Shown here piece by piece: positions 41,707 through 61,360 of a stretch of DNA of 64,000 bases. The position numbers and the translations under genes were made by a program. The DNA is from Lampropedia cohaerens (lineage in GTDB: Bacteria; Pseudomonadota; Gammaproteobacteria; Burkholderiales; Burkholderiaceae_C). How positions within the stretch are numbered: position 1 is the stretch's first letter; every line of letters begins with the position of its first letter. The notes beneath the pieces are model-generated. The model was not told the DNA's origin and did no database searches. It saw nothing but the letters and a program-made list of their open reading frames with translations. The stretch spans positions 124,001-188,000 of the forward strand of contig NZ_LBNQ01000023.1 of the NCBI RefSeq assembly GCF_001005215.1, given 5' to 3'.

Positions 41707-41710
<4 letters not shown>

Positions 41711-42570
41711 CTGAAGACCACCGTCTTGGCCTGGTTGAGGAACACGCGGTGCTGCGTGTGGTATTTGACGGCGCTGGCCAGGGCCACGGTTTCGGTCGCG
41801 CGGCCAATTTCCACCATGTCGTCGGGACGGAAGGTGTGGTCAACACGCTGCACGGCCTGCTCGATGATCGGGCCTTCGTCCAGATCCGCGGTGACGTAAT
41901 GGGCCGTTGCCCCGATGAGCTTGACGCCACGCGCGTGCGCCTGGTGGTAGGGCTTGGCGCCTTTGAAACCGGGCAGGAAGGAGTGGTGGATGTTGATGGC
42001 ACGGCCTGCCAGCTGGGCACACAGATCGTCGGAGAGGATTTGCATGTAGCGGGCCAAGACGACCAGTTCGGTCTTGGTTTCTTCCACGATCTTGAGCAGC
42101 TCTTTTTCTTGCTGGGCCTTGTTGTCCTTGTTGACGGGCAGGTACACGAATCGCAGGCCCTCGCGTTCGGCCATTGGGCGCAGGTCCAGATGATTGGAGA
42201 CGACGGCGGTGATGTCCATGTCGATCTCGCCCTTGCTGCGACGGTACAGCAAGTCAGCCAGACAGTGGTCGAACTTGCTGACCATCAGCAGCACCTTCAT
42301 TGGCTGGGCGCTGCTAAAAATGCGCCATTCCATGCTGAATTGCTTGGATGTCTTGGAAAAGTCACTGCGCAGTTTCTCGATGTCACCGGCTTGCCCAGTG
42401 AAGTGAAATACGCAGCGCATGAAAAATCGCTGGGTATCCTCGTCATCGAATTGGGCCAGTTCGCTGATGTAGCAACCACGCTCGGCGAGGAAGGAGGAGA
42501 CGGCAGCAACGATACCTGTGGTGGCGGGGCAGCTGATGGTGAGAATGAAGTTTTCGCGGGTGTTGTCCAT
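41707..42570 (-). CDS. purU: Formyltetrahydrofolate deformylase
   Basis: PurU hydrolyses 10-formyl-THF to formate and free THF. The 287-residue protein has an N-terminal ACT domain ([28 protein letters not shown]) and a C-terminal GART-like formyl-hydrolase domain with [41 protein letters not shown] and [15 protein letters not shown] (catalytic Asp). The start ATG 42570 follows DmmD after a 95-base gap. In this operon it regenerates THF and discharges the methyl carbon as formate. No formate dehydrogenase is encoded within the window. Confidence 0.96.
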
Positions 42571-42665
42571 GATGAGAGCGAATAGGCGCCAAGGAAAGCC
42601 CCACGTGCGACGCACGCGGTGGGGCTATTGAGACGTGAGAAGGCTTGGCTGGCTGCGGTGCGGGT

Positions 42666-43799: not shown

Positions 43800-43842
43800 T
43801 GTCAGGTTCTCCAGTTGGTTGTGATTAACGGGCAAAGGGTTT

Positions 43843-44925: not shown

Positions 44926-44937
44926 GGTGCGGACTCC

Positions 44938-45888
44938 TTAGAGATCAAGCGTCAGGGTGCTGTTTTTGCGGCAGCGTGAGACACACGGCATGAGCATGTG
45001 CTGGCGGTCCTCCGCGGAGAGGAAGTGGTCACGGTGATCAACATCACCGCTTTCGTAGCGGGTGGCACATTGCCCGCATACGCCGCCCCGGCAAAGGTTG
45101 GCCACCTCAATGCCCACGCCTTCGAGTGCTTCCAGCAGGCTTTCGTCGGCGCCGACGGTGATGGTGGTGTTGCTGCGCAGCAGGCGTGCGGTGAAAGGCT
45201 CACCGGGTTCAGGAGCGGCAAAGGCTTCGAAGTGCACGCGGGCATCCGACCAGCCCAGGCTGCGCGCTGCGTCACGCACACCGTCGATCAGGCGCTGCGG
45301 GCCACAGCAGTAAACGTGGGTGGTCAGGCTCCGCTCGCGCAGCAGTTGTGTCAGCTCCAGTGGCGTGTTGCGATCGGCGTCATAAACGTGCAGGCGCTCA
45401 CCCAGACGCTCACGCAGCTCCTGTTCATAGGCATTGGTCAAATCGGAGCGGAAGGCGTAATGCAGCTCGAACGACAGGCCGCGGCGCTCAAACTCATGGA
45501 TGTAGGCCATAAAGGGGGTGATGCCAATTCCGCCTGCTACCAGGATGTGGTGCCCGGCACGTGAATGTGGTGCAAACAGGTTGGCGGGGGAGCCAATGAC
45601 CAGTTGGTCGCCCACTTGAACCTGTTCGTGCATGTAGCGCGAGCCGCCACGCGAGTCATCCTGCCGGCGCACGGCAATGCGGTACTGCCGGCTGTCGCCG
45701 GGGTCGCTGACCAACGAATAAGCGTTGCGCAGCAACCGCGTGCCATTGGGAATCTGCACCTGGATGTGGCTGCCGGCGGAAAAGCGTGGCAGAGCGCTGC
45801 CGTCGGTGGCGGTGAAGGTGAATTCGCGAATCAGCGGCGTCAAGGCGCGCGCGGATGTGACGGTGACGTCGATGGTTGTGCGGCTCAT
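44938..45888 (-). CDS. Phthalate-dioxygenase-reductase-type oxidoreductase of the dimethylamine monooxygenase
   Basis: The 316-residue protein has a flavin domain (RNAYSLVSDPGDSRQYRIAVRRQ), an NAD(P) domain (LVAGGIGITPFMAYIHEFE) and a C-terminal plant-type 2Fe-2S domain with Cys266, Cys271, Cys274 (CRGGVCGQC) and Cys302. It passes electrons from NAD(P)H to the heme subunit encoded next. The start overlaps the dmmA stop by four bases (ATGA), implying coupled translation. Confidence 0.9.
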   Translation of the reverse strand: MSRTTIDVTVTSARALTPLIREFTFTATDGSALPRFSAGSHIQVQIPNGTRLLRNAYSLVSDPGDSRQYRIAVRRQDDSRGGSRYMHEQVQVGDQLVIGSPANLFAPHSRAGHHILVAGGIGITPFMAYIHEFERRGLSFELHYAFRSDLTNAYEQELRERLGERLHVYDADRNTPLELTQLLRERSLTTHVYCCGPQRLIDGVRDAARSLGWSDARVHFEAFAAPEPGEPFTARLLRSNTTITVGADESLLEALEGVGIEVANLCRGGVCGQCATRYESGDVDHRDHFLSAEDRQHMLMPCVSRCRKNSTLTLDL

Positions 45889-46430
45889 GCCTGCTTCCTT
45901 CCAAAAGGTTGATCGGCATCGGCAACTACTCCAAGGTAGGCGCCATGGATGCGGGAGAAGTGCTGGCGCACCTCCAGCACCACGCCGCAGGAGGCGCAAC
46001 TTGGATGTTCCTCGCTGCGGTCAATCAATTGCTGCGTGCTGCAATGCACGCAATAAATTGGAGTCAGGGCCTCCTCATGCCGGAACATGCTGATTTCCTG
46101 TGGATGCATACCCACCGCAACGGCCGCGTTGTACAGTTTCCAGATTGCGTGTTCTGTGCCGCTGAGGTAAAGGTGCGTGCCGACACACGCTTTCTGTAGC
46201 ATCGCCTGCAATTGCGCCTGCGCGCTCTCTATCGACTGGCCCGCCAGATTCAGTATCTGAAAGCTGCCCGGTGCTCTTGCCTTGAGTTGCTGTTCAAATT
46301 GCAGGTCTTGCGCATCGGGCGTGTCCGACCGAACCACCAGGTGATGAATGGCGTTTTCCTGCAGCGCACGGTTCTGGTAACTTGGCAGGCTCGCAGGGCG
46401 TGTTGCATAGCTGGCTGGGGTGGCTTGCAT
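45885..46430 (-). CDS. dmmA: DmmA-like small subunit of dimethylamine monooxygenase
   Basis: The 181-residue protein has an N-terminal domain (about residues 25–115; IHHLVVRSDTPDAQDLQFEQQL, then THLYLSGTEHAIWKLYNAAVAVGM) and a C-terminal zinc-ribbon-like segment with YCVHC and CASCG, followed by FSRIHGAYLGV. This pattern matches the DmmA family that accompanies DUF3445 proteins. It is the promoter-proximal gene of the six-gene minus-strand operon dmmA–reductase–heme subunit–dmmD–purU–folD. Its precise role, probably structural or flavin-delivering, is not settled. Confidence 0.8.
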   Translation of the reverse strand: MQATPASYATRPASLPSYQNRALQENAIHHLVVRSDTPDAQDLQFEQQLKARAPGSFQILNLAGQSIESAQAQLQAMLQKACVGTHLYLSGTEHAIWKLYNAAVAVGMHPQEISMFRHEEALTPIYCVHCSTQQLIDRSEEHPSCASCGVVLEVRQHFSRIHGAYLGVVADADQPFGRKQA

Positions 46431-46508
46431 GAGAACTCCGGGTAAGAGGGGCTGTGTCTGCTTCTGGGAAAATTCTCTGCGCTGGCGTTTGCCGGCTCAA
46501 TCCCGACA

Positions 46509-46530
46509 AGGTGATACCACCTAAGGAGTA
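46509..46530 (-). promoter_or_regulatory. Candidate NarL-type site between dmmA and RR2
   Basis: TACTCCTT (46530 down to 46523, minus strand) fits the NarL heptamer. A second, poorer half-site lies two bases away, so TACCACCTAAGGAGTA (46515–46530) is a 7-2-7-like arrangement. A near-perfect 14-bp palindrome, AGGTGATACCACCT, overlaps it at 46509–46522. It lies 93 bases before dmmA and 72 before the divergent regulator gene. Confidence 0.45.
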
Positions 46531-46601
46531 GTTACTGCGCCGAGGTCGGTGCCTACAATCGCCGCCCGCACCGGGTGCTTTCGCCTCGGGCACGAAATCC
46601 G

Positions 46602-47255
46602 ATGAGTCTGCCCACAGAGCCTGTGACAGTGGTTGTCATCGACGACCACCCGATGTTTCGAAAAGGATTGGTCATGCTGCTGGAAGGCAGCAGCATCTGG
46701 CGCATCCTTGGCGATGTCGACGGCGGTCGCGAAGGGCTGGCCTTGATCCGCGAGCAACAGCCCCAACTGGTATTGCTGGACTGGCACATGCCAGCGTTTT
46801 CTGGCATGCAGGTGCTGGAGGAGATCCGCACTTTGTCGCTGGAGTGCAAGGTGGTGGTTCTGACGGCATCGCAGGACCGTGAAGATCTGCTGCTGGCGTT
46901 GCGCCTTGGTGCCAACGGTTATTTGCTCAAGGACACGGATCCAGATGAGCTGCAGGACTATTTGCTGCAGTGCTGCTCGGCCGAAGTGGTGCTCAAAGGA
47001 CAGATGGTCAGCCTGCTGCTGCAGCCAGAAGGGGCACAGGGCTCGCCGCCGTTTCCCGGCCAGATCAACCTGACGGCACGCGAGACGCAGACTTTCGAGC
47101 TGCTGGCGCGGGGCTTGAGCAACAAACTGATTGCCCGCGAGATGGGCATCAGCGACGGCACGGTCAAGATTTATGTCAAAAGTCTTCTGCGCAAGTTCAA
47201 GGTGCGTTCGCGCCTGGACTTGGCCGCCAGTTTCCATCGCGTGCCTGCCCCCTGA
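46602..47255 (+). CDS. NarL/FixJ-family response regulator (RR2)
   Basis: The 217-residue regulator has a receiver domain (DD at 14–15, Asp60 in LVLLDWHMP, Lys in GYLLKDTDP) and a LuxR helix-turn-helix (LTARETQTFELLARGLSNKLIAREMGISDGTVKIYVKSLLRKF). The recognition helix differs from RR1 in only a few residues. No histidine kinase accompanies it, so the kinase at 33.9 kb is the obvious candidate phosphodonor for both. It is divergent from the dmm operon, with 171 bases between starts. ATG 46602 gives the standard N-terminus. Confidence 0.93.
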   Translation: MSLPTEPVTVVVIDDHPMFRKGLVMLLEGSSIWRILGDVDGGREGLALIREQQPQLVLLDWHMPAFSGMQVLEEIRTLSLECKVVVLTASQDREDLLLALRLGANGYLLKDTDPDELQDYLLQCCSAEVVLKGQMVSLLLQPEGAQGSPPFPGQINLTARETQTFELLARGLSNKLIAREMGISDGTVKIYVKSLLRKFKVRSRLDLAASFHRVPAP

Positions 47256-47402
47256 CAGTCCGGTCACGATCTTTTCATGCGCTACGCTGTCAGGATGCAC
47301 TGCAGTGGATAGGCCACCAGTAGCTAGGTGCGCTTTCGCCCGACGGTCCTAAAGGTTGCGCCGCCAACGTTTCTGAATACAGCGCCTGGGCTGCTGGCTG
47401 AT

Positions 47403-47439
47403 AAAAAAGCGCGCGTCTGTTATCGGACCGGCGCGCGTC
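47403..47439 (-). terminator. Candidate terminator downstream of glnK
   Basis: On the minus strand GACGCGCGCC and GCGCGC enclose a loop of about 16 bases and are followed by six T. It lies 158 bases after glnK. The rest of 47256–47596 holds no gene that I recognise. Confidence 0.5.
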
Positions 47440-47596
47440 ATGCTACAGATGTCTGGTGCCGGGCTCCACTGCATTGGCAAAGGCCATCAAGTCAAGCATG
47501 ACGGCGTCTGCACCCGTGCCAGCGATGCCAGCCCTGCAGCAATAGCGGCCGTCCACGCATGAGGGGCGAGCAGGAAAGCACCGCTTGGTGAGCGCG

Positions 47597-47941
47597 TCAA
47601 ACAGACTCTGCTCCCCGTTCCCCCGTGCGGATGCGCACGGATTCCTCCAGACTTTGCACAAAGATCTTTCCATCGCCGATCTTGCCGGTGCGTGCGGCGC
47701 TGGTAATGGCTTCAATGACCGCATCCAGCACGTCTTCGGCCACGGCCAGTTCCACCTTGACCTTGGGCAGGAAGTCCACCGTGTATTCGGCGCCGCGGTA
47801 GAGCTCGGTATGGCCTTTCTGGCGTCCAAAACCCTTGACTTCGGTGACGGTCAGTCCGCGGACATTCAGCGCCGAGAGGGCTTCGCGTACTTCGTCGAGT
47901 TTGAATGGTTTGATGATGGCGGTGACAAGTTTCAGTGACAT
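47597..47941 (-). CDS. glnK: Nitrogen regulatory protein PII, GlnK type
   Basis: The 114-residue trimeric PII protein binds ATP/ADP and 2-oxoglutarate and blocks AmtB when nitrogen is plentiful. The T-loop is intact (KGFGRQKGHTELYRGAEYTVDFLPK), with Tyr53 equivalent to the uridylylated Tyr51 of other PII proteins because of a two-residue N-terminal extension. The signature GKIGDGKIFV is present. It follows amtB copy 2 after 105 bases, the reverse of the usual glnK–amtB order. Confidence 0.96.
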   Translation of the reverse strand: MSLKLVTAIIKPFKLDEVREALSALNVRGLTVTEVKGFGRQKGHTELYRGAEYTVDFLPKVKVELAVAEDVLDAVIEAITSAARTGKIGDGKIFVQSLEESVRIRTGERGAESV

Positions 47942-48046
47942 GGTTGGAACTCCGAAGGGTGAAAGATTGGATGGGGACCGTCCAGATATGGCGCCAATCA
48001 GCTGATCGACACTCGGCCGGCCCTTGTTGGGGCAGCGGCAGGCGAC

Positions 48047-49396
48047 TCAGGCACTGAGCTTGTAGCCGACTTCGCCATGCTCGGATGGATCCAGGCCGAT
48101 TTCCTGCTGCTCATCGCTCACGCGTAGGCCGCCACAGGCGATGGAGGCGATCTTCAGGGCGATGTAGCTGGTGATGGCGCTGAAGATGATGCTGAAAACA
48201 ATGGCTCCAATCTGGACAAGCATTTGCGCCCCCAGGCCCCGGCCTTCCGGCAATCCTTGACCCGCGAAGACCGACAGGGCGAACACGGTCGTGAGCAGGC
48301 CGCCAATGATGCCGCCGATGCCGTGAATGCCAAAAACATCCAGCGCATCGTCCTGGCCCAGCATGGGCTTGAGCTTTTCAACGGCGAGGATACAGACAGG
48401 GGTGGACAGGACACCGACCAGGATGGCGCCGACGGGCCCGACGAAGCCGCAGGCCGGCGTGATGGCCACCAGACCGGTAATGGCACCGGAGGCAATGCCC
48501 AGCATGCTGGGTTTGCCACGATGCAGCCATTCGATGAGCATCCAGGCGGTAGCGCCACCGGCCGAGCCAAGCATGGTATTAAAGACCACGAGCATCGAGT
48601 AACCGTTGGCCACGAGGGCACAGCCGCCGCAGAAACCCAGCCAGCCGACCCACAGCAGGGAGGCTCCCGTCATGTTCATGGTCATGTTGTGTGGCGCCAT
48701 GGTTGGTTCCAGGCGCGGCCCGACCATCCAGGCGGCCACCAGTGCCGCAACGCCGATGTTGATGTGCACCACGTTTCCGCCCGCGAAGTCTTGCGGGCCC
48801 CATTCAAAGACCCAGCCACCGCCCCAGCCCATGTGGGCCATCGGGATGTAGTTGATAGTGAACCAGATCACTGTGAACAGCATTACCGCGGAGAACTTCA
48901 TGCGCTCGGCAAAGCCTCCGACGATGAGGGCTGGCGTGATCGCGGCAAACAGGCCCATGAACAGGATGTAGAGCAGTTCGGGAATCTCGCCGACCAGGGA
49001 TTCCGTATTCACCCTGCGCAGAAAAACCTTGTCCAGCCCGCCGATGAAGGCCTGCAGGCTGCCGCCATCGGTGAAGGCAAGGCTGTAGCCATACAGCACC
49101 CAGAGGATGCTGATGACCGAAGTCGTGGCAAACACCTGCATCAGTACCGAAAGCACGTTCTTGGCGCGCACCAGACCGGCATAGAACAGGGCCAGCCCCG
49201 GAATGGTCATCAGTAGCACCGCCAGTGCACATGCGAACACAAATGCCGTGTGACCGGGGTCGGCCAGGGCCGTGGTTGTTTCCTGTGCCCAGGCCGGCAT
49301 TGCGAGCAAGGCCGTGCCAAGCGTGGGTGCAACGAGTAGACTTGACTTGAGCTTGCGATCAGTAATTGTCGGGTGCGAGGGTAGAGGGAGATTCAT
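48047..49396 (-). CDS. amtB: Ammonium transporter AmtB, copy 2
   Basis: The 449-residue channel has a signal peptide with likely cleavage near residue 37 (MPAWAQ), eleven predicted membrane segments, GLALFYAGLVRAKNVLSVLMQ, GWGGGWVFEWG, GGNVVHINIG (first pore His), PACGFVGP and DVFGIHGIGGIIGG (second pore His). It is the first gene of an operon with glnK and lies behind a perfect sigma-54 promoter, so it is expected to be induced by nitrogen limitation through NtrC. AAGGAC precedes the start. Confidence 0.96.
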   Translation of the reverse strand: MNLPLPSHPTITDRKLKSSLLVAPTLGTALLAMPAWAQETTTALADPGHTAFVFACALAVLLMTIPGLALFYAGLVRAKNVLSVLMQVFATTSVISILWVLYGYSLAFTDGGSLQAFIGGLDKVFLRRVNTESLVGEIPELLYILFMGLFAAITPALIVGGFAERMKFSAVMLFTVIWFTINYIPMAHMGWGGGWVFEWGPQDFAGGNVVHINIGVAALVAAWMVGPRLEPTMAPHNMTMNMTGASLLWVGWLGFCGGCALVANGYSMLVVFNTMLGSAGGATAWMLIEWLHRGKPSMLGIASGAITGLVAITPACGFVGPVGAILVGVLSTPVCILAVEKLKPMLGQDDALDVFGIHGIGGIIGGLLTTVFALSVFAGQGLPEGRGLGAQMLVQIGAIVFSIIFSAITSYIALKIASIACGGLRVSDEQQEIGLDPSEHGEVGYKLSA

Positions 49397-49991: not shown

Positions 49992-50378
49992 TCAGCGCGA
50001 TTCTTGTTCGTATTCCTGCATCGCTTCACGCGCCAGTCGGAAGCTGTCCACCGCTGCGGGCACACCGCAGTAAATGGCTACTTGCAGGAGCACCTCGGAT
50101 ATCTTCTCCTTCGACACGCCATTGCGCAATGCGCCCTTGACATGCAGCTTGAGTTCGTGCGGACGGTTCAAGGCCGAAATCATTGCCAGATTGATCATGC
50201 TGCGTTCGGCAGGCTCCAGTCCCGGTCGGCCCCACACCGCACCCCAACAGTATTCAGTCACCAGCTCCTGCAGCGGGCGGTTGAAGGCATCGGCTTTGCC
50301 GATCGACTGGTTGACGTATTCCTCGCCCAGCACTTGCTTGCGAATGGCCAGGCCCTTTTCAAACACTTCATTATTCAT
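49992..50378 (-). CDS. Carboxymuconolactone-decarboxylase-family protein
   Basis: The 128-residue protein has the CMD fold signature: FNRPLQELVTEYCWGAVWGRPGLEPAERSMINLAMISALNRPHELKLHVKGALRNGVSKEKISEVLLQVAIYCG. The Cys-X-X-Cys of AhpD-type peroxidases is absent, so it groups with the PcaC-like decarboxylases. It is the last gene of the catabolic operon and its start overlaps the stop of the upstream aldehyde dehydrogenase by four bases. It may decarboxylate or isomerise a ring-opened acid; the substrate is unknown. Confidence 0.9.
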   Translation of the reverse strand: MNNEVFEKGLAIRKQVLGEEYVNQSIGKADAFNRPLQELVTEYCWGAVWGRPGLEPAERSMINLAMISALNRPHELKLHVKGALRNGVSKEKISEVLLQVAIYCGVPAAVDSFRLAREAMQEYEQESR

Positions 50379-51831
50379 GCGGAAATTCCTCCAAAGAGAC
50401 TGTATTTGATCTCAAGGTAATCTTCGATTCCGAATCGGGACCCTTCCCGCCCGAGGCCGGACTGCTTGATCCCTCCAAAGGGCGCGACCTCGGTAGAGAT
50501 AGTGGCCTTGTTGATGCCTACCATGCCGTATTCCAGGCGCTCGCTCATGCGCCATGCCCTGCCCAGGTCGCGGGTATAGCAATAGGCGGCCAGACCGAAT
50601 TCCGTCGCATTGGCCAAGGCAATGGCCTGTTCTTCGTCATCGAAGCGGAACACGGCCGCTAAGGGGCCGAATGTTTCCTCCGTGGCGACATCCATCTGCG
50701 CGGTGACTTCGGTAATCAGAGTAGGCTCGAAGAAGAAGCCACCTGACGCATGTCGCTTGCCTCCGTGCACCAGCTGCGCGCCTTTGGCCAGGGCATCTTG
50801 CAGATGCTTTTCAACTTTCCTGACTGCGTTTTCATTGATCAAGGGCCCGATGTCGACGCGTTCTTGCATGCCATCGCCAATCTTAAGGCAGCAATGCGGG
50901 CCTGAAATTGGCGCACAAACTGATCGTGTACGTGTGAGTGCACCAGAAACCGGTTGACGCACACACAAGTCTGCCCGGCATTCCTGAATTTAGCCAGCAA
51001 GGCGCCCTCGACTGCGGCGTCAATGTCGGCATCCTCGAACACAATGAAAGGGGCGTTGCCACCCAGCTCCAGAGATACCTTCTTGAGCGTCAGTGCCGCT
51101 TTCTGATAAAGCATGCGCCCGACCGGCGTTGAGCCGGTAAAGGTGAACTTGCGCACCAGCGGACTTGCAAAAATCGCCTCGCCAATTTCCGCAGCATCGC
51201 CGGTCACCACGCTGAACACATCCCCCGGTACCCCGGCACGCACCGCCAGATCGACCAGTGCCAGCGCCGTAAATGGGGTTTCAGGCGCGGGCTTGAGCAC
51301 ACAGGGACAACCCGCCGCCAGTGCAGCAGCGACTTTGCGTGTAATCATCGCCGCGGGGAAGTTCCACGGCGTGATTGCCGCGACCACGCCAATCGATTGT
51401 TTGCTGACAACAATCCTGGCATCGGCATAAGGGCTGGGGATTGTTACGCCGTCGATGCGCCGCGCTTCTTCCGCGAACCATTCCACAAAGCTGGCGGCGT
51501 AGAGAATCTCGGTGCGTGCCTCGGCCAAAGGCTTGCCTTGTTCGGTGGTGAGAATCCGGGCCAGATCATCGGCGCGCCCGATGATCAGCCTGAACCAGGC
51601 TTTCAGAATATCGGCTCGCTCCTTGGCAGGGCGTGCACGCCAGGCGGGCCAGGCCTGTGCGGCGGCGGTGATGGCCTGCTGCGTTTCCTGCTTGCCTAGG
51701 GCCGGTACGGAGCCGATCCGGGCCTGGGTTGCAGGGTTGATGATGGTGCTTACTTCGCCATTGGCAGCGCTGCGCCAATGGCCAGCCACAAAGGCCTGTT
51801 CGTGGAATAGATCGATATTATGTAAGCTCAT
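50375..51831 (-). pseudogene. Succinate-semialdehyde-dehydrogenase-like aldehyde dehydrogenase, frameshifted
   Basis: The N-terminal part (51831 down to about 50888) has VSKQSIGVVAAITPWNFPAAM, FTGSTPVGRML, SLELGGNAP (general-base Glu) and FRNAGQTCVCVNR (catalytic Cys). The C-terminal part continues in another frame from LKIGDGMQERVDIGPLI to EVAPFGGIKQSGLGREGSRFGIEDYLEIKY. One missing base near 50888 explains the break: restoring one C in the minus strand after GCTGCC rejoins AALKIGDGM. It is either a genuine recent mutation or a sequencing error. Intact, it would be a GabD-type enzyme of about 485 residues oxidising a C4–C5 semialdehyde. Confidence 0.9.
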
Positions 51832-51875
51832 GATTTTCTATTAATGTGTGCTGACTATGGGGATGGGCAGTGCGG

Positions 51876-53282
51876 TCAGTTGGCACGCTGTGGCGCTGAC
51901 AGCGAAGCGCTCAGGCCAAGCCGGCTGCTGTTCAGTACCAGATACACCACTGCGGTTACCAGCAGGCCCACCAGCCACGACACATCAATGTCACCTAATG
52001 CGCGTGACCAGCTGCCTTCGAACCATGCGTTGCGGATGAATGGCAGCTGCACACCGATGCCCACGAAATAGGCAGTCATTGCGCTGACGTTGAATTTGCC
52101 GTAGACGCCCCCGTCCCTGGCGAAAATCGAAGCAATGTCATAGCCAGCACGGTTGATCAGATAGAAGTCGATCAGGTTGATGGCTACCCAGGGAGCCAGG
52201 ATGAACAGCAGCGCAAATACCGCGCTGATAAAAATGCTGATGAAGTCGGCCGATGCCAGCAGCGCCCCCCAGGTTGATACGATCAGCACGGTAACGGACA
52301 GGGCGATGCGTGCTTTGCGGCCCGGACGCCACTCGATCGAGAAAGTCTGTATGGAGGTGATACAGGACAGCACTGCGCCATACAAGTTCATCGCGTTGTG
52401 GCCGATGACGTTGGCGAGAAACAGCACCATGATGGCAAAGCCCAGTATCCCCGTATGCTCTTTTACCGCCAGCATGGCGTCGCTGGTATCGGTGATGCTA
52501 ACGGCCAGCACGCCAAACAGGAAGGCGCATATGGTGCCCAGCGCCGCGCCAAGATAGGTGTACAGGAATGGCTTGAAAATACCGGTTGATTTCGGCAGAT
52601 AGCGTGAGTAATCCGAGGTATATGGTGAAAAGCTGATCTGCCACACCGCACAGATCCCAAACACTGCAAACCAAGCGGAGGCACTGAACTGCCCTTGCTG
52701 CAGCATGGCCGGAGTCAGCTGCGGCAGCATGATGGCGGTGCCCAGCAGCAGAGCACCGCCCATGAACCACGTACCGAGCTTGTTGATGCGGTGTATGAAG
52801 TTGTAGCCAATGACGCCAATCAGCGTTGCCAACACCGCGCCGATAACGGTGGCAGCCGACAGAGGAATCGCCGGAGCCACCGTGTGCAGGGTTTTGCCGG
52901 ACAGAATGATGTTGGAGATGAAGTAGCCAAGGTAGATGATGGTGGTGAACACCACGACCAGCAGCGAGCCGTAGCGCCCGAACTGGGCGCGACTTTGGAT
53001 CATCTGCGGAATGCCGACTTGAGGTCCCTGCGCCGAAGTCAGGCCCAGAATCAGCGCGCCAAAGAAATGACCGAAGCAAATTGCCAACACCGCACTGACA
53101 ACGTCGAGCCTGAATGTTACAATCGCAGTCGCGCCAGTGATGACGGCTAGCGGCGCAATATTGGTACAAAACCACAGCGTGAAGAGATCCTTCGGGTTGC
53201 CATGGCGCTGCTCGGGCGGCACGTAGTCGATGGAATTGCTCTCAATGGAAAACGCGCCTTCAGAACTGTCTGCTTGTTTCAT
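51876..53282 (-). CDS. NCS1-family cytosine/purine permease-like transporter
   Basis: The 468-residue membrane protein has about twelve predicted helices. NCS1 features are the N-terminal YVPPEQRHGNPKDLFTLWFCTNIAPLAVITGA, GPQVGIPQMIQSRAQFGRYGS, and SFSPYTSDYSRYLPKST. The closest known group is CodB-like cytosine permeases, and the family also carries allantoin, hydantoin, uracil and pyridoxine-type rings. It lies within the monooxygenase operon, where it would import the N-heterocyclic substrate. ALDH genes flank it on both sides. Confidence 0.92.
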   Translation of the reverse strand: MKQADSSEGAFSIESNSIDYVPPEQRHGNPKDLFTLWFCTNIAPLAVITGATAIVTFRLDVVSAVLAICFGHFFGALILGLTSAQGPQVGIPQMIQSRAQFGRYGSLLVVVFTTIIYLGYFISNIILSGKTLHTVAPAIPLSAATVIGAVLATLIGVIGYNFIHRINKLGTWFMGGALLLGTAIMLPQLTPAMLQQGQFSASAWFAVFGICAVWQISFSPYTSDYSRYLPKSTGIFKPFLYTYLGAALGTICAFLFGVLAVSITDTSDAMLAVKEHTGILGFAIMVLFLANVIGHNAMNLYGAVLSCITSIQTFSIEWRPGRKARIALSVTVLIVSTWGALLASADFISIFISAVFALLFILAPWVAINLIDFYLINRAGYDIASIFARDGGVYGKFNVSAMTAYFVGIGVQLPFIRNAWFEGSWSRALGDIDVSWLVGLLVTAVVYLVLNSSRLGLSASLSAPQRAN

Positions 53283-53480
53283 TGCCTTGTGCCTTCAAGC
53301 TGTGGTTGTGGGTTGCGATGCGTCAAGTCGATACCAGCCCTGCCAAGCGCACGCTGGCATGGTTGTGTTCGTTTGACTCGGTGTGTTTGCAGGGCGGGCT
53401 TGTCGCTCCTCCCTTGTGTTCACAGCAGATCCACCTCGGTATGCAGTGGGGTCTGCTGGATGCAGCCGTTCGGTGCGCGA

Positions 53481-54950
53481 TTAGCGCATCATGAACGGAT
53501 CGCCAATCGGCGTATCGGCGGTTCTCAACCAGACCGTTTTGGTGGTCGTGTAGTCGAGTACGGCGTCAGCGCCACCTTCACGCCCGTGACCAGAGAGGCC
53601 AAAACCACCAAATGGCGCGAGTGGTGAGATGGCCCGATAGGTATTCATCCACACCACCCCGGACTTGATCGCCTTGACCAGTCGGTGTGCCCGCGTCAGG
53701 TTGCTGGTGAAAACGCCCGCAGCCAGGCCGTACGCGGTTTTGTTGGCCTTGGAGATTGCCTCTTGTTCGCTGCGAAACACATCCACCGACAGTACCGGGC
53801 CGAACAGTTCGGTGAGGACGCATTCGGCATCCGGTGCGGCGCTGCAGTCCAGAATGGTCGGGGCGTAGTAGTAGCCTGCTCGATCCAGGCGGCGACCGCC
53901 GGTAATCAGCCGCGCGCCCTGCGTCAGCGAAGTCGCCACCACTTGCTCGATGTGCGTGAGCTGGCGGGCGGTGCAAAGTGGGCCGAATTCGGTGGCCATG
54001 TCATCGGGTAGGCCGACCCGAATGGCCTGAACCTTGGCAAGCAGGCGCGCGACGAAAGCGTCCTTGATGCTCTCCTCTACCAGCAAGCGCGAGCCGGCAA
54101 CACAGCTCTGGCCGCTGGCGGCAAAGATGCCGGCCAGCTGGGCGTTGACCGCGCTGTCGATGTCGGCATCGGCAAACACCAGAATCGGCGATTTTCCGCC
54201 CAGCTCCAGCGATACCTTGGCAAGGTTGTGCGCACTGTTGTTAACAATGTGCCGCGCCGTTGCCGGCCCGCCGGTAAAGGCAATGTGATCAACCTGCGGG
54301 TGGCTGCTCAACACCGCACCGCATTCGGCGGCAAAGCCGGTTACGACGTTGACCACGCCGGGCGGAAAGCCGGCCTCATGCACCAGCCGGGCAAATGCCA
54401 GCAGCGGTGCCGGTGCATCTTCCGAGGCTTTGAGTACGACTGTGCAGCCAGCCGCCAGTGCTGGTCCAAGCTTTACCGCAGACAAGAACAGCTGACTGTT
54501 CCAGGGAACAATGGCGGCCACTACGCCGAGCGGCTCGCGCGTGATCCAGGTTTGCATGTCTGCCTTGTCGATTGCGACGTGACGGCCATCGATCTTGTCG
54601 GCGATGCCGGCGTAGTAGCGGTAGTACTCGGCGATGTAGGCAATCTGACTGCTGGTTTCCCGGATGATCTTGCCGGTATCGCGGGTTTCTACTGCGGCAA
54701 GCTCGGGGGCGGCGTCTTCCAGCAAATCGGCCAAGCGCGCGAGCAGCTTGCCGCGTTGGCTGGCGCTGATGCCTGCCCATGCCGGGTCAGTGAAGGCGCG
54801 CCGAGCCGCAGCCACGGCACGGTTGACTTCGTCCGAGCGCGCCTCCGGCATCTGCGCCCACACTGCACCGGTGGCAGGATCAATGCTGCCAAATGTCGCC
54901 GCACCTGGCTCGAACTTGCCGTCGATGTACAACTCGAATTCGGAGATCAT
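53481..54950 (-). CDS. Aldehyde dehydrogenase (NAD-dependent superfamily)
   Basis: The 489-residue enzyme has NAD-binding VVAAIVPWNSQLFLSAVKLGPALAAGCTVVLKASEDAP, FTGGPATARHIV, catalytic Glu in LELGGKSP and catalytic Cys in AASGQSCVAGSR. It is intact, unlike its operon partner at 50.4 kb. It follows the luciferase-like gene after nine bases with a good AGGAGAG ribosome site. It resembles betaine-aldehyde/hydroxymuconate-semialdehyde types but the aldehyde cannot be named from sequence. Confidence 0.93.
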   Translation of the reverse strand: MISEFELYIDGKFEPGAATFGSIDPATGAVWAQMPEARSDEVNRAVAAARRAFTDPAWAGISASQRGKLLARLADLLEDAAPELAAVETRDTGKIIRETSSQIAYIAEYYRYYAGIADKIDGRHVAIDKADMQTWITREPLGVVAAIVPWNSQLFLSAVKLGPALAAGCTVVLKASEDAPAPLLAFARLVHEAGFPPGVVNVVTGFAAECGAVLSSHPQVDHIAFTGGPATARHIVNNSAHNLAKVSLELGGKSPILVFADADIDSAVNAQLAGIFAASGQSCVAGSRLLVEESIKDAFVARLLAKVQAIRVGLPDDMATEFGPLCTARQLTHIEQVVATSLTQGARLITGGRRLDRAGYYYAPTILDCSAAPDAECVLTELFGPVLSVDVFRSEQEAISKANKTAYGLAAGVFTSNLTRAHRLVKAIKSGVVWMNTYRAISPLAPFGGFGLSGHGREGGADAVLDYTTTKTVWLRTADTPIGDPFMMR

Positions 54951-54959
54951 TTTCTCTCC

Positions 54960-55997
54960 TTAGGAAAAGGCAGGCATCACTTCATTGATCATGCGGAGCA
55001 ATGACGCCTTTTTGCGCTCGAAGCTCATGCCGGTGTCAATCCAGAAAGAATATTCGTCGTAACCCATGGCTTCATAGGCCTTCAGACGATCGATGACTTC
55101 CTGCGGCTCACCGATGACGTTATTTCTGCGCATCAGCGCTGGTGAATACAGCGGATGTGCCTTGATTTCCTCTTCGCTCAAGGGCTCGATCAACCCTTTG
55201 GTGATGTTGCGTTCATTCTTGAACCAGGCGCCGTAGTAGTTGTAGAAGACGTTGATTTCTTCTGCGGCGCGCTGTGCATCAGCTTCGCTGTCGGCCACGT
55301 AGGTGTGACGCAGCAGCATGATTTCCGGGCGCGGTACTTCGGTGAATTTCTGACAGGCAGCCTGAAAGTGCCCCATCAGTTTCTCGACTTCCTCATCGCC
55401 CAGGAACAACGGTGTGACCTGCACGTTGCAGCCATTCTTGACGGCGAATTCATGGCTATTGGGGTCACGTGCGGCAATCCAGATCGGTGGATGTGGCTGC
55501 TGTACTGGCAGCGGCGATGAGGTGGTTTTGGGAAACTTCCAGAATTCGCCATCATGCGTGTAGTCGCCTTTCCACAGACCTTTCAAGGCCGGCACCATTT
55601 CCCGCATGCGTTGCCCGGCCGTCCAGGCATCCAGGCCAGGCATCATGCGTTCATATTCGAACGAGTAGGCTCCCCGCGCAATACCCAGCTCCAGCCTGCC
55701 ATTGGTAATGACATCGGTCATGGCCGCTTCACCGGCCAAGCGGATCGGATGCCAGAACGGCGCGACAATGGTGCCTGTGCCTAGCCGCACCCGTTTGGTC
55801 TTGTTGGCAAGGTCGACCAGGTTGATGAAGGGATTGGGAGCAATGGTGAAGTTCATCCCATGATGCTCGCCAGTCCAGATCGCGTGCATGCCACCCTCAT
55901 CGGCGATCTTGCACAGCTCGACCATTTCCTCGTACAGTTGCTTTTGTGGCTCATCTTCCGAGAGCCGTTCCATATGAACAAACAATGAGAAACGCAT
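54960..55997 (-). CDS. Luciferase-like (LLM class) flavin-dependent monooxygenase
   Basis: The 345-residue TIM-barrel protein has LCKIADEGGMHAIWTGEHHGMNF, RVRLGTGTIVAPFWHPIRLAGEAAMTDVITNGRLELGIARGAY and PPIWIAARDPNSHEFAVKNG, all bacterial-luciferase-family hallmarks. It would use reduced flavin from the adjacent reductase gene to insert oxygen into, or cleave, a ring, as RutA does with uracil and PyrA-type enzymes with pyridine. The start ATG 55997 (MRFSLFVHME) lies one base after the reductase stop; earlier residues are not conserved. Confidence 0.93.
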   Translation of the reverse strand: MRFSLFVHMERLSEDEPQKQLYEEMVELCKIADEGGMHAIWTGEHHGMNFTIAPNPFINLVDLANKTKRVRLGTGTIVAPFWHPIRLAGEAAMTDVITNGRLELGIARGAYSFEYERMMPGLDAWTAGQRMREMVPALKGLWKGDYTHDGEFWKFPKTTSSPLPVQQPHPPIWIAARDPNSHEFAVKNGCNVQVTPLFLGDEEVEKLMGHFQAACQKFTEVPRPEIMLLRHTYVADSEADAQRAAEEINVFYNYYGAWFKNERNITKGLIEPLSEEEIKAHPLYSPALMRRNNVIGEPQEVIDRLKAYEAMGYDEYSFWIDTGMSFERKKASLLRMINEVMPAFS

Positions 55998-55998
55998 A

Positions 55999-56916
55999 TC
56001 AGCCTGCCTTTTTGAAAAGTTCACGGATTACGCCTGCGCTGTTATTGCCGTAATACAGGCCGTAGTTTTTCAATTCATCCTCTCGCCGGTATCGCTCCAG
56101 CATGCGGAGGACCGCAACGTCCTCAAAATTGAGCGTGTGCAGGTCGTCGAGACTGACGTATTGGCCAGCGAGCGGCTCGCTGACTGGCGAACTGCATAGG
56201 AACGTGATGTGCTGGCACCTTTTTTCGCTGTCGGTATAGACGGAATAAACGAAGTTGGCGCTGGCATCGGGCTGGAATTGATTGAAGAGCCTTGTGATCG
56301 CCTTGTCAGTGCCCGCCAGGTCCGTTGCCATGGCAGGCAGGGTCCAGCGACCGTTGGAAGCGGGAATCAGCAATACCTTTCCAGCGTGGCCAATGATGGC
56401 GCTGATGATGGTCTCTGGCGCCGTCTTCACTTCGGTGAACATTTTGTTCGGGGTAAAGTAGCCGCCTCTGTAATACCCCAATCCGGCAGGGCCGGCAGAG
56501 TGAAAGTTCTCCACTCTTCCGATCAGAATCGAGTGGTCTCCGGCGTCGATGACCGCATGCATGGCGCAGTCGAACCATGCGCTCACGCCCTCCAGTAGCG
56601 GACTGCCGCAGTCACTGAAGTGCCATGCCACATTGGCGAAACGGTTTTCGCCGGGGCGTGCGAAGGTATTGGATATATCCACCTGATCCTCCGCCAGCAC
56701 ATTGATCGCAAAATGCGAGGCATTAATGAAGCTCGTATGGTTTCTCGAAGACTTGGCGATGCTGATTTGCAGCAAGGCCGGCTCCAGCGAGACGGACGAA
56801 AACGAATTGGCGGTAAATCCGATTGGTCCGATCTCCTGCACATGGGTGGTTGCCACCGTCACTCCAGTCATGAAGGTGCCGAACGCCTCGCGCAGTTCCT
56901 TGGTCGTGTGGCTCAT
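55999..56916 (-). CDS. Flavin reductase with a C-terminal extension
   Basis: Residues about 1–165 form a flavin reductase-like FMN-binding split barrel (FGTFMTGVTVATTHVQEIGPIGFTANSFSSVSLEPALLQISIAKSS, SHFAINVLAEDQ, GDHSILIGRVENF). Residues about 170–305 are an extra domain not found in RutF- or HpaC-type reductases, with no motif I can name (VLLIPASNGRWTLPAMATDLAG hints at a NUDIX-like strand). It supplies reduced flavin to the luciferase-like monooxygenase encoded next. Its start overlaps the hydrolase stop by four bases. Confidence 0.9.
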   Translation of the reverse strand: MSHTTKELREAFGTFMTGVTVATTHVQEIGPIGFTANSFSSVSLEPALLQISIAKSSRNHTSFINASHFAINVLAEDQVDISNTFARPGENRFANVAWHFSDCGSPLLEGVSAWFDCAMHAVIDAGDHSILIGRVENFHSAGPAGLGYYRGGYFTPNKMFTEVKTAPETIISAIIGHAGKVLLIPASNGRWTLPAMATDLAGTDKAITRLFNQFQPDASANFVYSVYTDSEKRCQHITFLCSSPVSEPLAGQYVSLDDLHTLNFEDVAVLRMLERYRREDELKNYGLYYGNNSAGVIRELFKKAG

Positions 56917-57737
56917 GTACTTGCTCCCAACGATTCTTCTGACGGCGCCAACGCGGTTATTTGCATCCAGTCGCTGAGCGCCTGATTCACCGCGTCCGGC
57001 GCGGTGAGATTCACCATATGTTTGTGACCGTCTATAACTACGGCATAGGCCTGCTGACCTAGGCTTGCCATGCGAACCGCCATTTCTGCTGTGGAGTTAG
57101 GGTCTTGTGCGCCAGTCAGCACCAAAGCCGGGCAGGCAATTTCGGGCCACCGGTCGGCATAGACTTCGTCACCCAATGCAAAAGCCCGATAAGCTGCTGC
57201 GTAACCTGCCAGGTCCACGCTCTCCAGCCAGCCTCGAACGCGATCTACCACTACTGGATCGTCCGTAGGGTCAAACCAGCGCGACAGCGGCGCCTGCACA
57301 TCGAGACCGCCGGTCTGCAACTGATGTGCACGTCGGAGCACTGCGGCGCGCGCCTCTGGGCTGCGCCTGTGTACGCCATTGACGGCAGCGACGCGCGTGA
57401 CGAGCTCCGGCCGCTCGATGGCCGTTCCCACTGCCACCAGGGCCCCCATCGAGTGCCCGGCAAGGCTGACTGGCCCGACATCCAGACGCTCAATGCATTC
57501 GGCCATCCACCGCACATAGTCCTGCAGACCGACTTCGCCGGCGAGACCCTCGCTTGCTCCATGTCCCGGCATGTCCACCGCAATCACGCGATAGTTGTTG
57601 GACAAAAATTCAATCTGGGGATGCCATGCCAGCGCCTGCATGCCAACGCCGTGGACCAGCAGCACCGGCTCGCCGCTGCCGCTGTCCAGGTAGTGCACCA
57701 GCCGATTACTTGACAGCCGCAGGGTTCGAGAGGTCAT
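56913..57737 (-). CDS. Alpha/beta hydrolase
   Basis: The 274-residue hydrolase has the oxyanion region VLLVHGVGMQALAW, the nucleophile elbow GHSMGA (Ser96), an acid in TGAQDPNS and His in DGHKHMVN. The size and fold match RutD, MhpC-type C–C hydrolases and lactonases, so it may hydrolyse the ring-opened product. The 5' end overlaps the upstream PF06684 gene by 32 bases. ATG 57737 is preferred to TTG 57743. Confidence 0.91.
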   Translation of the reverse strand: MTSRTLRLSSNRLVHYLDSGSGEPVLLVHGVGMQALAWHPQIEFLSNNYRVIAVDMPGHGASEGLAGEVGLQDYVRWMAECIERLDVGPVSLAGHSMGALVAVGTAIERPELVTRVAAVNGVHRRSPEARAAVLRRAHQLQTGGLDVQAPLSRWFDPTDDPVVVDRVRGWLESVDLAGYAAAYRAFALGDEVYADRWPEIACPALVLTGAQDPNSTAEMAVRMASLGQQAYAVVIDGHKHMVNLTAPDAVNQALSDWMQITALAPSEESLGAST

Positions 57738-58308
57738 GGCCAAGTTCTTTCAGATCGGTATAACGATCACCAATGCGGTGGTGCGGGCGTCCGGCAGTTG
57801 CTGCGCCCAGCACCACAACGATCTCATCTGCTGCTGGGGCGTCGGCAATGGAGAACTGCAACGTCAGGTAATGAGAGCGGCGCCCTTCGTCGTTTTTGTC
57901 CATCATCGGCACCTGAATGGGTGCAGCTGCCGGTCCGCGCGTGTTGGTGAAGGCCAGGTAGCTTTTGGCGCCGACTGCCTGGCGATAGATGTTGCCGAAA
58001 TGCAGCGTGTGAATCAGCGCCGAGGCATGCTCAAGCTCGCCATCAAGGCCGACCACAGCGCTTTTTCCAAATGCCTCGACTGCTTCCCCCGAGCCTGCGG
58101 ACTCAAGGATGAGGGGTGTCAGATGCGCGCTCAAAGTTGGCGCCACTGCACGAATTTCAGCAGAAAGATCGTCGACGAATCCGCGCCCCGCCCAAGGGTT
58201 CCTAATGACTGCTGCGGCGCCGATCATCTTTAGTGGGCGAGTCCCCTCGCGCCCCCCGTCAACATAGACGGTTTCAACATACACCACTGTTTTTCGAATC
58301 AGACTCAT
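57706..58308 (-). CDS. PF06684 ('amino acid synthesis') family protein
   Basis: The 200-residue protein matches the family named AA_synth: RKTVVYVETVYVDGGREGTRPLKMIGAAAVIRNPWAGRGFVDDLSAEI at the start and GAATAGRPHHRIGDRYTDLKE at the end. As I recall, the family has a chorismate-mutase-like fold related to the YjgF/RutC and ring-opening amidohydrolase architecture; the family name reflects only genome context and no reaction is established. ATG 58308 is chosen because AAAGGA sits six bases upstream. It is the first gene of the eight-gene minus-strand operon. Confidence 0.82.
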   Translation of the reverse strand: MSLIRKTVVYVETVYVDGGREGTRPLKMIGAAAVIRNPWAGRGFVDDLSAEIRAVAPTLSAHLTPLILESAGSGEAVEAFGKSAVVGLDGELEHASALIHTLHFGNIYRQAVGAKSYLAFTNTRGPAAAPIQVPMMDKNDEGRRSHYLTLQFSIADAPAADEIVVVLGAATAGRPHHRIGDRYTDLKELGHDLSNPAAVK

Positions 58309-58353
58309 TGCCATTCCTTTGGAAGAAAACATATCCTAAATACAGGAATATGA

Positions 58354-58444: not shown

Positions 58445-58488
58445 GTGGAGCCATTGCAACCGCCGCAGGGTGGGTGCAATGGCTCCAC
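58445..58488. repeat. Perfect 14-bp inverted repeat with a 16-base loop
   Basis: GTGGAGCCATTGCA (58445–58458) is exactly complementary to TGCAATGGCTCCAC (58475–58488). No T-run follows on either strand. It lies between the catabolic operon promoter and IS copy 2. It may be a terminator relic, a protein-binding site or the footprint of an older mobile element. Confidence 0.65.
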
Positions 58489-58723
58489 TACTTTACAGTG
58501 CGTGCAGGGCACCCGATTGGTGAGTGTTTTGCCATGCGCTCACCGCAGTGGTGCAATCTGGTGTAGCAATCGTGTGGTGCTGGGATGCGTGGAACGTTAG
58601 AACCAGAATGCTGTTGGCGTTAGGGCCAGCAGCATTGAAAGGATGAGCGAAGAACTAATTTTTCAGACCGCTTTGAACCGCCCGGGGATTCCTGGAGGCT
58701 CCAACTCTTGAGAGGATGGAGTC

Positions 58724-59048
58724 ATGAGCAAGCCAGTGAAGTATTCCCCGGAAGTGCGGGTGCGAGCGGTGCGGATGGTGCTGGAGGCACCAGGACACGC
58801 ACAGTTCACAGTGGGCGGTGATCGAGTCGATTGCCGGGAAGATCGGTTGCACGACCGAGACGCTGCGCAACTGGGTGCGGCGAGCCGAGCGTGACCAAAG
58901 GCTGCGGCCAGGGCTGACGACGGACGAGCGGGCGCGGATGAAGGCGCTGGAACGCGTGGTGCGGGAACTGCGGCAGACCAACGAGATCCTGCGCAAGACC
59001 AGTGCGTATTTCGCCCAGGCGGAGCACGACCGCCGCTTCAAGCCATGA
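58724..59048 (+). pseudogene. IS3-family OrfA, frameshifted
   Basis: The start [16 protein letters not shown] is readable from ATG 58724. The frame then shifts between about 58785 and 58805, and WAVIESIAGKIGCTTETLRNWVRRAERDQ to AYFAQAEHDRRFKP continues in another frame. Its stop overlaps the orfB ATG at 59045 (ATGA). Confidence 0.88.
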
Positions 59049-59996
59049 TCGGGTTTGTCGCCAACCATCGCGACGCCTACGGAGTCGAGCCGATCTGCCG
59101 GGGACTGGAGATCGCTCCGTCGACCTGTTACAGCCATGCGGACCGGGAGGCCGATCCCGAGTCTCGTCCGGATCGGTGGTGGCGAGATAGAGCGCTGGAG
59201 GTGGAGGTCCGCCAGGTGTGGGACGAGAACAAGCAGGTGTACGGGGCGAAGAAGGTCTGGAAGCAGTTGCTGCAGGAGGCTGGCAGGTGGCGCGTTGCAC
59301 GATGGAACGGCTGATGCGGCGGCTGGGGTTGCATGACGTGATCCGTGGCAAGCCGGTCAAGACCACGATCAGCGACAAGGCGCAGCCGTGTCCGCTGGAT
59401 CGGGTGAACCGGCAGTTCCATGCCGACCGGCCGAACGCGCTGTGGGTGAGCGACTTCACCTACGTCTCGACCTGGCAAGGCATGGTGTACGTGGCGTTCG
59501 TGGTGGACGTGTACGCGCGCCGGATCGTCGGCTGGAAGGCGTCCAGTTTGATGGCGACGGACTTCGTGCTCAATGCCCTGGAACAGGCGCTGCACGCCCG
59601 GTGAGCGCAGCTTCGCGCGTATCGACCGACCCGATCTCGTCTTCTTACCCATCAACACCTCCATTCAAGAATGTGTTGCGACGACGGGTTGAATCCACCC
59701 AATACGTATCGATCCGCTACAGCGAACGCCTGGCCGAGGCCAGGATCGAACCGTCGGTGGGCAGTGTGGGCGATTCGTACGACAACGCGCTGGCCGAGAC
59801 GATCAACGGACTGTACAAGGCCGAGGTGATCCGCCGCCGGTCATGGCGCAGCCGCGAGCAGGTGGAACTGGCCACGCTGGACTGGGTGCACTGGTACAAC
59901 CACAAGCGGTTGCTGGAGCCGATCGGGCACGTCCCGCCAGCGGAAGCCGAAGCGGCTTACTATCGGCAACACACCGGTCAGGCCAAGGCGGCCTGA
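59045..59996 (+). pseudogene. IS3-family OrfB, frameshifted and altered in the catalytic core
   Basis: Segments include FVANHRDAYGVEPICRGLEIAPSTCY, then in a new frame [13 protein letters not shown] and LWVSDFTYVSTWQGMVYVAFVVDVYARRIVGW (first catalytic Asp), and finally QYVSIRYSERLAEARIEPSVGSVGDSYDNALAETINGLYKAE (catalytic Glu). The stretch that should encode HSDRGSQ with the second Asp is replaced by about 98 bases of unrelated sequence (59602–59700), so the DDE triad is incomplete. Confidence 0.88.
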
Positions 59997-60035
59997 CTCA
60001 ACCCAAACGGTCTCCAAGAAAGCCGGGGCGGTTCA

Positions 60036-60393
60036 GAGACTGTGAACAGGTTCTTAAACCGTTATGCCCGAACGCAAGAATCATGTTGGCATGATCGCGC
60101 ACGCGACAACCGCCTGTTCGTTTGAGCGGTGCCGTACCGCTACCGAGCTGGCATTGCTGGGTATCTGGTTAGCCGGAAAGTTGCGACGATTTGCGTGTTG
60201 TCCCATGTCAGTTTCCCTGCTGGCGCCGCTGGGGCGTCTGGGGCGCGCATTCCGGGCGCGGGCGCCGACAGCTTGTGCTTACATTGCGTTTTCAGTGGTG
60301 GCACTGAGGCGGGTTCGGGCGACAGTGCATGGCAGCAGCGGATAATGCCAAGCGGTAGCAGACGGTCGCTACACTTACTCGGACAGTTTTGCC
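60036..60393. other. 358-bp region between IS copy 2 and gntR, no recognised gene
   Basis: A frame of 93 codons (60064–60345) is present but rich in Arg/Ala and unlike any family I know. The region presumably holds the gntR promoter. No copy of the GTATACC operator core was found in it. Confidence 0.45.
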
Positions 60394-61068
60394 ATGGACC
60401 TGAAAATTCAACACTCACCAGTGACACTGCGCGAGATCTGCGTGGACAAGGTGCGCAAGGCCATCATCGCGGGCTACTTCACTTCAGGTACAAGGCTGGT
60501 CGAGCGCTCATTGTGCGAGGAGCTGGGCGTCAGCAGGACTGTCGTGCGTGAAGTGATTCGATACCTGGAAGCCGAAGGACTGGTCGAAATTCTACCCAAC
60601 AGGGGACCGATCGTGGCCCGGCTCGATTGGGATACGGCGCGCCAGATCTACAGTATCCGCTTGCAGTTGGAGCAAAGCGCCGTGGCCGAATGCACCAGCA
60701 AGCTGACCGATCAGTCGGCCAAGGCGATCCAGTCTGCGCTACTCAGCCTTAAAAAAGCGCTCAAATCGAATGACACCGGCCTTATTACCGATGCGTCCGC
60801 CAAGCTGTACGAAACGATATTTCTCACCGCCGAGCAGAATGTCGCTTGGGAAATCGTGCAGCGTCTCAACAGCCGTATCAGCCGGTTGCGTGCGATGACC
60901 ATGAAGTCCACGGATCGCGAGGTTTCAGGCTATGACCGGATCAGGCAGATTTGTGAGGCCATCTGCGTACATCGCGACGCTGAGCTTGCCAAGCAACGCG
61001 TGGCCGACCACATCAATGAGGCCGCTTCCATTGCCAAAGCAATTCTTCACACTAATAAAAGGAGTTGA
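60394..61068 (+). CDS. GntR-family regulator, FadR subfamily
   Basis: The 224-residue protein has an N-terminal winged helix (LREICVDKVRKAIIAGYFTSGTRLVERSLCEELGVSRTVVREVIRYLEAEGLVEILPNRGPIVA) and an all-helical FCD effector domain (about residues 80–215, with DASAKLYETIF and ICVHRDAELAKQRVADHI). FCD regulators repress catabolic operons until a carboxylic-acid-like ligand binds. It is the nearest plausible controller of the operon at 50–58 kb, whose promoter has a TGGT…ACCA palindrome. It is followed one base later by a DUF1330 gene. Confidence 0.92.
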   Translation: MDLKIQHSPVTLREICVDKVRKAIIAGYFTSGTRLVERSLCEELGVSRTVVREVIRYLEAEGLVEILPNRGPIVARLDWDTARQIYSIRLQLEQSAVAECTSKLTDQSAKAIQSALLSLKKALKSNDTGLITDASAKLYETIFLTAEQNVAWEIVQRLNSRISRLRAMTMKSTDREVSGYDRIRQICEAICVHRDAELAKQRVADHINEAASIAKAILHTNKRS

Positions 61069-61069
61069 T

Positions 61070-61360
61070 ATGCCTGCCTATTGGATTGCACATGTAGATG
61101 TGCATGATCCACAACAGTATCGCAACTACACCGATCTCGCGCCTGAGGCCTTCCGCAAATATGGCGCGAAGTTTCTGGCACGTGGCGGTAAGTCGCAGAC
61201 CTTGGAAGGGCCGGCGTTCGAACGCAACGTGGTCATAGAGTTTCCCGACTTCCAGGCTGCGATTGACTGCTACAACTCTGCTGAGTACCAGCTTGCCAAG
61301 ACCAAGCGCATTGGTCACGCCGTATCTCAGGTCACGATTGTCGAGGGTCTGCAGGCTTGA
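61070..61360 (+). CDS. DUF1330-family protein
   Basis: This 96-residue protein has a ferredoxin-like alpha/beta fold of the dimeric-barrel type (MPAYWIAHVDVHDPQQYRNYTDLAPEAFRKYGAKFLARGGKSQTLEG, then VVIEFPDFQAAIDCYNSAEYQLAKTKR). Members occur in many catabolic clusters, and no reaction is established. The start has a strong AAAGGAG site and lies one base after the gntR stop, so the two are co-transcribed. Confidence 0.92.
   Translation: MPAYWIAHVDVHDPQQYRNYTDLAPEAFRKYGAKFLARGGKSQTLEGPAFERNVVIEFPDFQAAIDCYNSAEYQLAKTKRIGHAVSQVTIVEGLQA

Follow-up and report, generated by a model that had tools for sequence, protein, structure and literature searches.

Trigonelline is a methylated form of vitamin B3 and serves as an osmolyte in plants and algae. 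Its conversion to methylamine and succinate reportedly takes four enzymatic steps, reconstituted with six proteins, and the succinate-semialdehyde dehydrogenase (SSADH) of the pathway is said to be assisted by a conserved hypothetical protein. Here we describe a stretch of eight genes on the minus strand (positions 49992-58332) of a 64,000-nucleotide window of Lampropedia cohaerens DNA (contig NZ_LBNQ01000023.1, positions 124,001 to 188,000), delimited by Pfam matches to the window proteins and by the list of open reading frames (ORFs). Judged by its sequences, it is very probably the tgn operon for trigonelline uptake and catabolism, a system already described rather than a new pathway of ring opening. 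In published passages on that system, TgnA/TgnB is credited with opening the trigonelline ring (PMC8269262, citing Perchat et al., 2018), and a figure legend lists TgnB as the flavin-dependent trigonelline monooxygenase (PMC11354265). The passages found in PMC4213383 mention trigonelline solely as a detected metabolite, and the terms trigonelline and tgn are absent from PMC13352529. The Rut pyrimidine pathway shares a luciferase-like monooxygenase, a flavin reductase, an alpha/beta hydrolase and an NCS1 permease with the locus at the level of broad family, whereas the dehydrogenases, the PF06684 protein and a carboxymuconolactone decarboxylase (CMD) family protein of the window operon lie beyond the Rut set.

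In the order of transcription, the operon encodes the PF06684 protein, the alpha/beta hydrolase, the flavin reductase, the luciferase-like monooxygenase, an aldehyde dehydrogenase, the NCS1 permease, a second aldehyde dehydrogenase (in two pieces) and the CMD protein (Table 1). The Pfam matches, all on the minus strand, agree with the gene families named in a first-pass annotation of the window, which had missed that the second dehydrogenase consists of two overlapping pieces in different frames. The monooxygenase was scanned against named genomes, where 237 stretches encode a relative, and the best 80 (68-83% identity) were kept. In the type strain of Acinetobacter baylyi (locus L009) the gene order and orientation are the same as in the window operon, and the seven unbroken proteins display 54-82% identity to their A. 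baylyi counterparts by local alignment, with the two tgnE pieces compared separately. The alignment of the TgnB homologue covers 345 residues at 81.7% identity, beginning at window residue 10. Divergent GntR and DUF1330 genes are found in L009 as in the window and, by synteny, belong to the cluster. The A. baylyi locus differs in one extra gene, a porin-like ORF (388 amino acids, recognized by eye) between the permease gene and tgnE; the window operon is without this gene, has a frame-split tgnE and carries an IS3-like insertion sequence (IS) element between regulator and operon.

Likewise, the same gene order as in the window operon occurs on a plasmid of Acinetobacter sp. PK01 (NZ_CP094644.1, locus L097), where the genes are annotated tgnA, tgnB and tgnC and where TgnB shares 93.3% identity with its A. 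baylyi counterpart. The annotation gives tgnB and tgnA as the oxygenase and reductase components, respectively, of a flavin-dependent trigonelline monooxygenase and tgnC as (Z)-2-((N-methylformamido)methylene)-5-hydroxybutyrolactone dehydrogenase, with the hydrolase, PF06684, SSADH and CMD genes annotated by family names only. Unlike the window operon, the PK01 cluster is plasmid-borne, has an unbroken tgnE and has a hypothetical gene between the permease gene and tgnE. It is adjoined by an aminomethyltransferase-family gene and an ammonium transporter, and comparable genes adjoin the window operon. Regarding the features expected of a tgn cluster, the window has a TgnB-type oxygenase, adjacent TgnA, TgnC and TgnD homologues in the expected order, and TgnF within the operon; TgnE is present as the two pieces in different frames. 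In the outline proposed in the first-pass annotation, an N-heterocycle is taken up, its ring is opened oxidatively by a two-component flavin monooxygenase, and hydrolysis and semialdehyde oxidation follow; this fits the tgn cluster. The same annotation further held both the substrate and the system to be undescribed, a claim contradicted by the gene order, the 54-82% identity, the PK01 annotation and the published passages, all of which correspond to the tgn cluster for trigonelline.

Table 1. Features of the tgn-like operon and its divergent flank in the L. cohaerens window (identities are to the A. baylyi counterparts).
Feature	Position	Strand	Evidence
tgnF homologue, PF06684 (AA_synth/DUF1185)	57706-58332	-	Pfam 3.4e-65; 79.0% identity
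tgnD homologue, alpha/beta hydrolase	56913-57743	-	Pfam; 55.2% identity; GHSMG motif
tgnA homologue, flavin reductase (Flavin_Reduct) with C-terminal domain	55999-56916	-	Pfam; 54.0% identity
tgnB homologue, luciferase-like ring-cleaving monooxygenase (Bac_luciferase)	54960-56024	-	Pfam; 81.7% identity
tgnC homologue, aldehyde dehydrogenase (Aldedh)	53481-54950	-	Pfam; 73.2% identity; ELGGK and GQSC motifs
NCS1-family permease, putative trigonelline importer	51876-53282	-	Transp_cyt_pur PF02133; 66.2% identity
tgnE homologue, 5' piece (succinate-semialdehyde dehydrogenase), frame-broken	50839-51831	-	Aldedh; 67% identity
tgnE homologue, 3' piece, different frame	50375-50968	-	Aldedh; 71% identity
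CMD family protein	49992-50378	-	PF02627; 81.9% identity
Degenerate IS3-like element	58671-60038		Terminal inverted repeats; broken transposase-like frames; family by eye
GntR/FCD regulator gene, divergent	60394-61068	+	Pfam; 57% identity
DUF1330 protein, coding part likely from an inner ATG of the frame	60932-61360	+	PF07045; 59% identity

The likely start codon of the PF06684 gene is at 58308, a later start within its ORF and the upper limit given in the first-pass annotation, and the A. baylyi homologue opens with the same residues, MSLIRK. At four junctions (CMD/tgnE 3' piece, monooxygenase/reductase, reductase/hydrolase and hydrolase/PF06684) the listed ORFs overlap, the extent ranging from a few bases to some tens. 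For the monooxygenase, a start about nine codons downstream, where its relatives begin, is probable and would abolish the monooxygenase/reductase overlap. Structural relatives were found for several of the proteins. Among the PDB matches listed for the hydrolase, (N-acetylaminomethylene)succinic acid hydrolase (3kxp) is fifth (E 7.7e-15, 58.1 bits), after closer esterase and enol-lactonase entries. The two are distant in sequence, yet both are alpha/beta hydrolases and 3kxp, by its PDB molecule name, acts on an enamide of aminomethylenesuccinate, a match that fits the role expected of TgnD. The flavin reductase has a near full-length match to a hypothetical oxidoreductase (PDB 3rh7), and its N-terminal part matches the reductase of p-hydroxyphenylacetate hydroxylase. 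Furthermore, the CMD protein scores 149.2 bits against the PcaC model, below the cut-off of 155.7, and the best NCBIfam match of both tgnE pieces is a succinate-semialdehyde dehydrogenase model.

The chemistry demonstrated in A. baylyi ADP1 most likely carries over to the window proteins. The NCS1 permease would import trigonelline, and TgnA would provide reduced flavin to TgnB, which would open the pyridine ring. TgnC would oxidise the resulting hydroxybutyrolactone (a substrate name taken from the PK01 annotation), and TgnD would hydrolyse the enamide diacid, with succinic semialdehyde, methylamine, formate and CO2 as the reported products. Succinic semialdehyde is then said to be converted to succinate by an SSADH. 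TgnF would stimulate this oxidation (PMC7913881). Since the SSADH gene within the operon lies in two frames, the last step is probably taken by another SSADH, and one encoded on contig 12 exceeds its curated cut-off (706.7 versus 646.35 bits).

The conservation of the gene set was examined across the 80 loci, under thresholds for identity and coverage of our own choosing and in fetched stretches that reach at most about 9 kb per side, such that a gene absent from a stretch may still be present in the genome. The luciferase-like monooxygenase is found in all 80, the hydrolase and the first aldehyde dehydrogenase in 79 each, and the flavin reductase and PF06684 in 78 each. Except in a few truncated or divergent loci, the PF06684-hydrolase-reductase-monooxygenase-dehydrogenase block (tgnF-D-A-B-C) is the conserved core. 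In both loci without PF06684 (L038 and L058) the contig ends before its expected place; L058, a contig of 3.4 kb, is also without hydrolase and reductase, and L046 is without the first aldehyde dehydrogenase, again at a contig end. L065 has no flavin reductase above the threshold, and the reductase counted in L021 lies on the opposite strand and matches at 35%. Of the other genes, GntR occurs in 73 loci, DUF1330 in 35, a tgnE relative in 26, the NCS1 permease in 18 (20 under a looser limit) and CMD in 11 (16 under the looser limit). Going by the record titles, Acinetobacter or the Burkholderia group is the source of 17 of the 18 permease loci and Paracoccus that of the remaining one; the 11 CMD loci are all from Acinetobacter, and the 26 tgnE loci are divided between Acinetobacter (11), the Burkholderia group (4) and alphaproteobacteria (11). 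Chance adjacency of the operon genes was rejected, given the presence of PF06684 in 78 of the 80 loci. In a control with fetched loci of distant luciferase-like proteins in relatives, which is weak because these loci span only about 2.4-4.0 kb, PF06684 was present in none of 14, a flavin reductase in one and a hydrolase in two. Some DNA match to positions 51876-58332 was seen in 498 plasmid records, with at least 80% covered in a single place in only three.

The first-pass annotation gave the PF06684 protein no known role. One is in print: TgnF, a homologue of HcdD (a DUF1185 protein), stimulates the TgnE-dependent oxidation of succinic semialdehyde in A. baylyi ADP1; the passage of that paper gives no mechanism and records that attempts to see comparable stimulation by HcdD failed (PMC7913881). 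No assigned reaction for PF06684/TgnF was found in the literature passages and listings searched. The window gene is the sole PF06684 match in its own genome, and the PF06684 proteins of eight relatives display 28-38% identity to it; in four relatives of the host (L109, L110, L111 and L113) genes with this level of identity stand in adjacent pairs. Solved relatives of the protein are available (PDB 2qtp and 3byq). Across 79 TgnF sequences, including that of the window, identity reaches at least 97% at 94 positions. Because PF06684 is tied to the ring-opening core (78 of 80 loci) rather than to tgnE (26 of 80, within the fetched stretches), and in view of these highly conserved positions, there is room for a catalytic role of TgnF ahead of the SSADH. 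We put forward, as a tentative and on balance unlikely idea, that TgnF may be more than a helper of the SSADH, namely an enzyme acting just before it, for example in speeding the conversion of the TgnD product (in its enamine or 2-formylsuccinate form) to succinic semialdehyde, with CMD as a decarboxylase for the same step.

Several observations weigh against the assignment of the operon to trigonelline catabolism. Locus L009 is that of the A. baylyi type strain and not of strain ADP1, and the tgn identity rests on the species, the PK01 annotation and secondary citations. TgnD and TgnA are just about 55% identical to their A. baylyi counterparts. Sarcosine-oxidase-like genes lie beside the A. 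baylyi cluster, and no full-length relative of the alpha subunit was found in the L. cohaerens genome, where the alpha-like query gave just two partial matches (29% and 25%), both in aminomethyltransferase-type genes of the window. Moreover, the break in tgnE and the IS-like element within the divergent promoter region may mean that this copy of the operon is impaired. A decaying, disused tgn operon, which would be compatible with its assignment to trigonelline, is a minority possibility that these last two features favour, tgnE lying in two frames and the degenerate element parting the operon from its regulator. On the other hand, the other seven genes are open, the hydrolase and TgnC retain the motifs inspected and another SSADH is present in the genome; furthermore, the break in tgnE could be an error in the draft assembly, which comprises 41 contigs, instead of real decay.

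The identities of TgnA and TgnD, only about 55%, together with the fact that close sequence is no proof of substrate, also leave some room for a tgn-like operon that keeps the ring-opening chemistry and has drifted to another N-methylpyridinium, such as homarine, or to a related pyridine. We consider this very unlikely, given the 81.7% and 73.2% identity of TgnB and TgnC and the preserved gene order; in addition, a passage of PMC8269262, a paper that has a correction concerning its homarine standard, argues on steric grounds against homarine as a likely substrate of TgnA/TgnB. The first-pass annotation proposed a new pathway resembling Rut, with a pyrimidine, a hydantoin or a lactam as substrate; the parallels with the Rut proteins on which it drew hold at the level of broad family and go no deeper. 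The flavin reductase reaches 73.1 bits against the RutF model (cut-off 254.75), the hydrolase 68.2 bits against the RutD model (cut-off 238.5), and no RutA model is among the 25 families listed of the 31 matched. With both cut-offs missed by far and a gene-for-gene match to tgn, a Rut-like or otherwise undescribed heterocycle pathway was rejected, and we regard it as the most improbable of the readings weighed here.

When the monooxygenase was searched in 60 genomes (its own and 59 relatives, E <= 0.001), some match was obtained in 40, with a close one only in its own genome and the best other at 31% identity. The lack of a close TgnB among the 59 relatives lends no support to an ancestral trait of the genus or family and suggests that the operon was gained horizontally. 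The G+C content adds nothing to this, as the operon (0.585) is not distinct from its neighbourhood (0.593 for 34000-48000), though it does differ from bases 1-30000 (0.651).

That neighbourhood encodes a trimethylamine monooxygenase (34630-36450; 824.6 bits, curated cut-off 675) and a trimethylamine N-oxide (TMAO) demethylase (36314-38827; 1127.8 bits, curated cut-off 1100), and the product of 43843-46430 matches the families of haem-dependent oxidative N-demethylases and DmmA-like dimethylamine monooxygenases. FolD- and PurU-type genes lie between the trimethylamine/TMAO and the dimethylamine genes. Ammonium-transporter-like genes, recognized by eye, accompany the methylated-amine genes at 34630-46430. 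One such gene (48047-49396, likewise named by eye) shares 45% identity with the ammonium transporter annotated next to the tgn genes of PK01. A protein resembling type III glutamine synthetases exceeds its cut-off (641.3 versus 469.6 bits) and might make gamma-glutamylmethylamide. Because trigonelline breakdown releases methylamine, such surroundings make metabolic sense, and the region has the look of an island devoted to methylated nitrogen compounds.

On the other side of the operon, the IS3-like element (1.37 kb), with 27-nt terminal inverted repeats (58671-58697 and 60012-60038) that are 81% complementary, sits between the PF06684 and GntR genes, which in A. baylyi are divergent and about 0.14 kb apart. 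Apart from this element, the GntR gene keeps the relative place and orientation of its A. baylyi counterpart. Between the element and the PF06684 gene there is an inverted repeat at 58445-58488 (20-nt arms, 90% complementary, 4-nt spacer), which might act as an operator or as a terminator. An N-formylglutamate amidohydrolase family gene (PF05013, 61575-62387) adjoins the DUF1330 gene on the opposite strand.

As a member of a described pathway, the operon matters mainly for annotation. Unlike the 59 relatives searched, L. cohaerens carries a close TgnB, and it may be able to use trigonelline.

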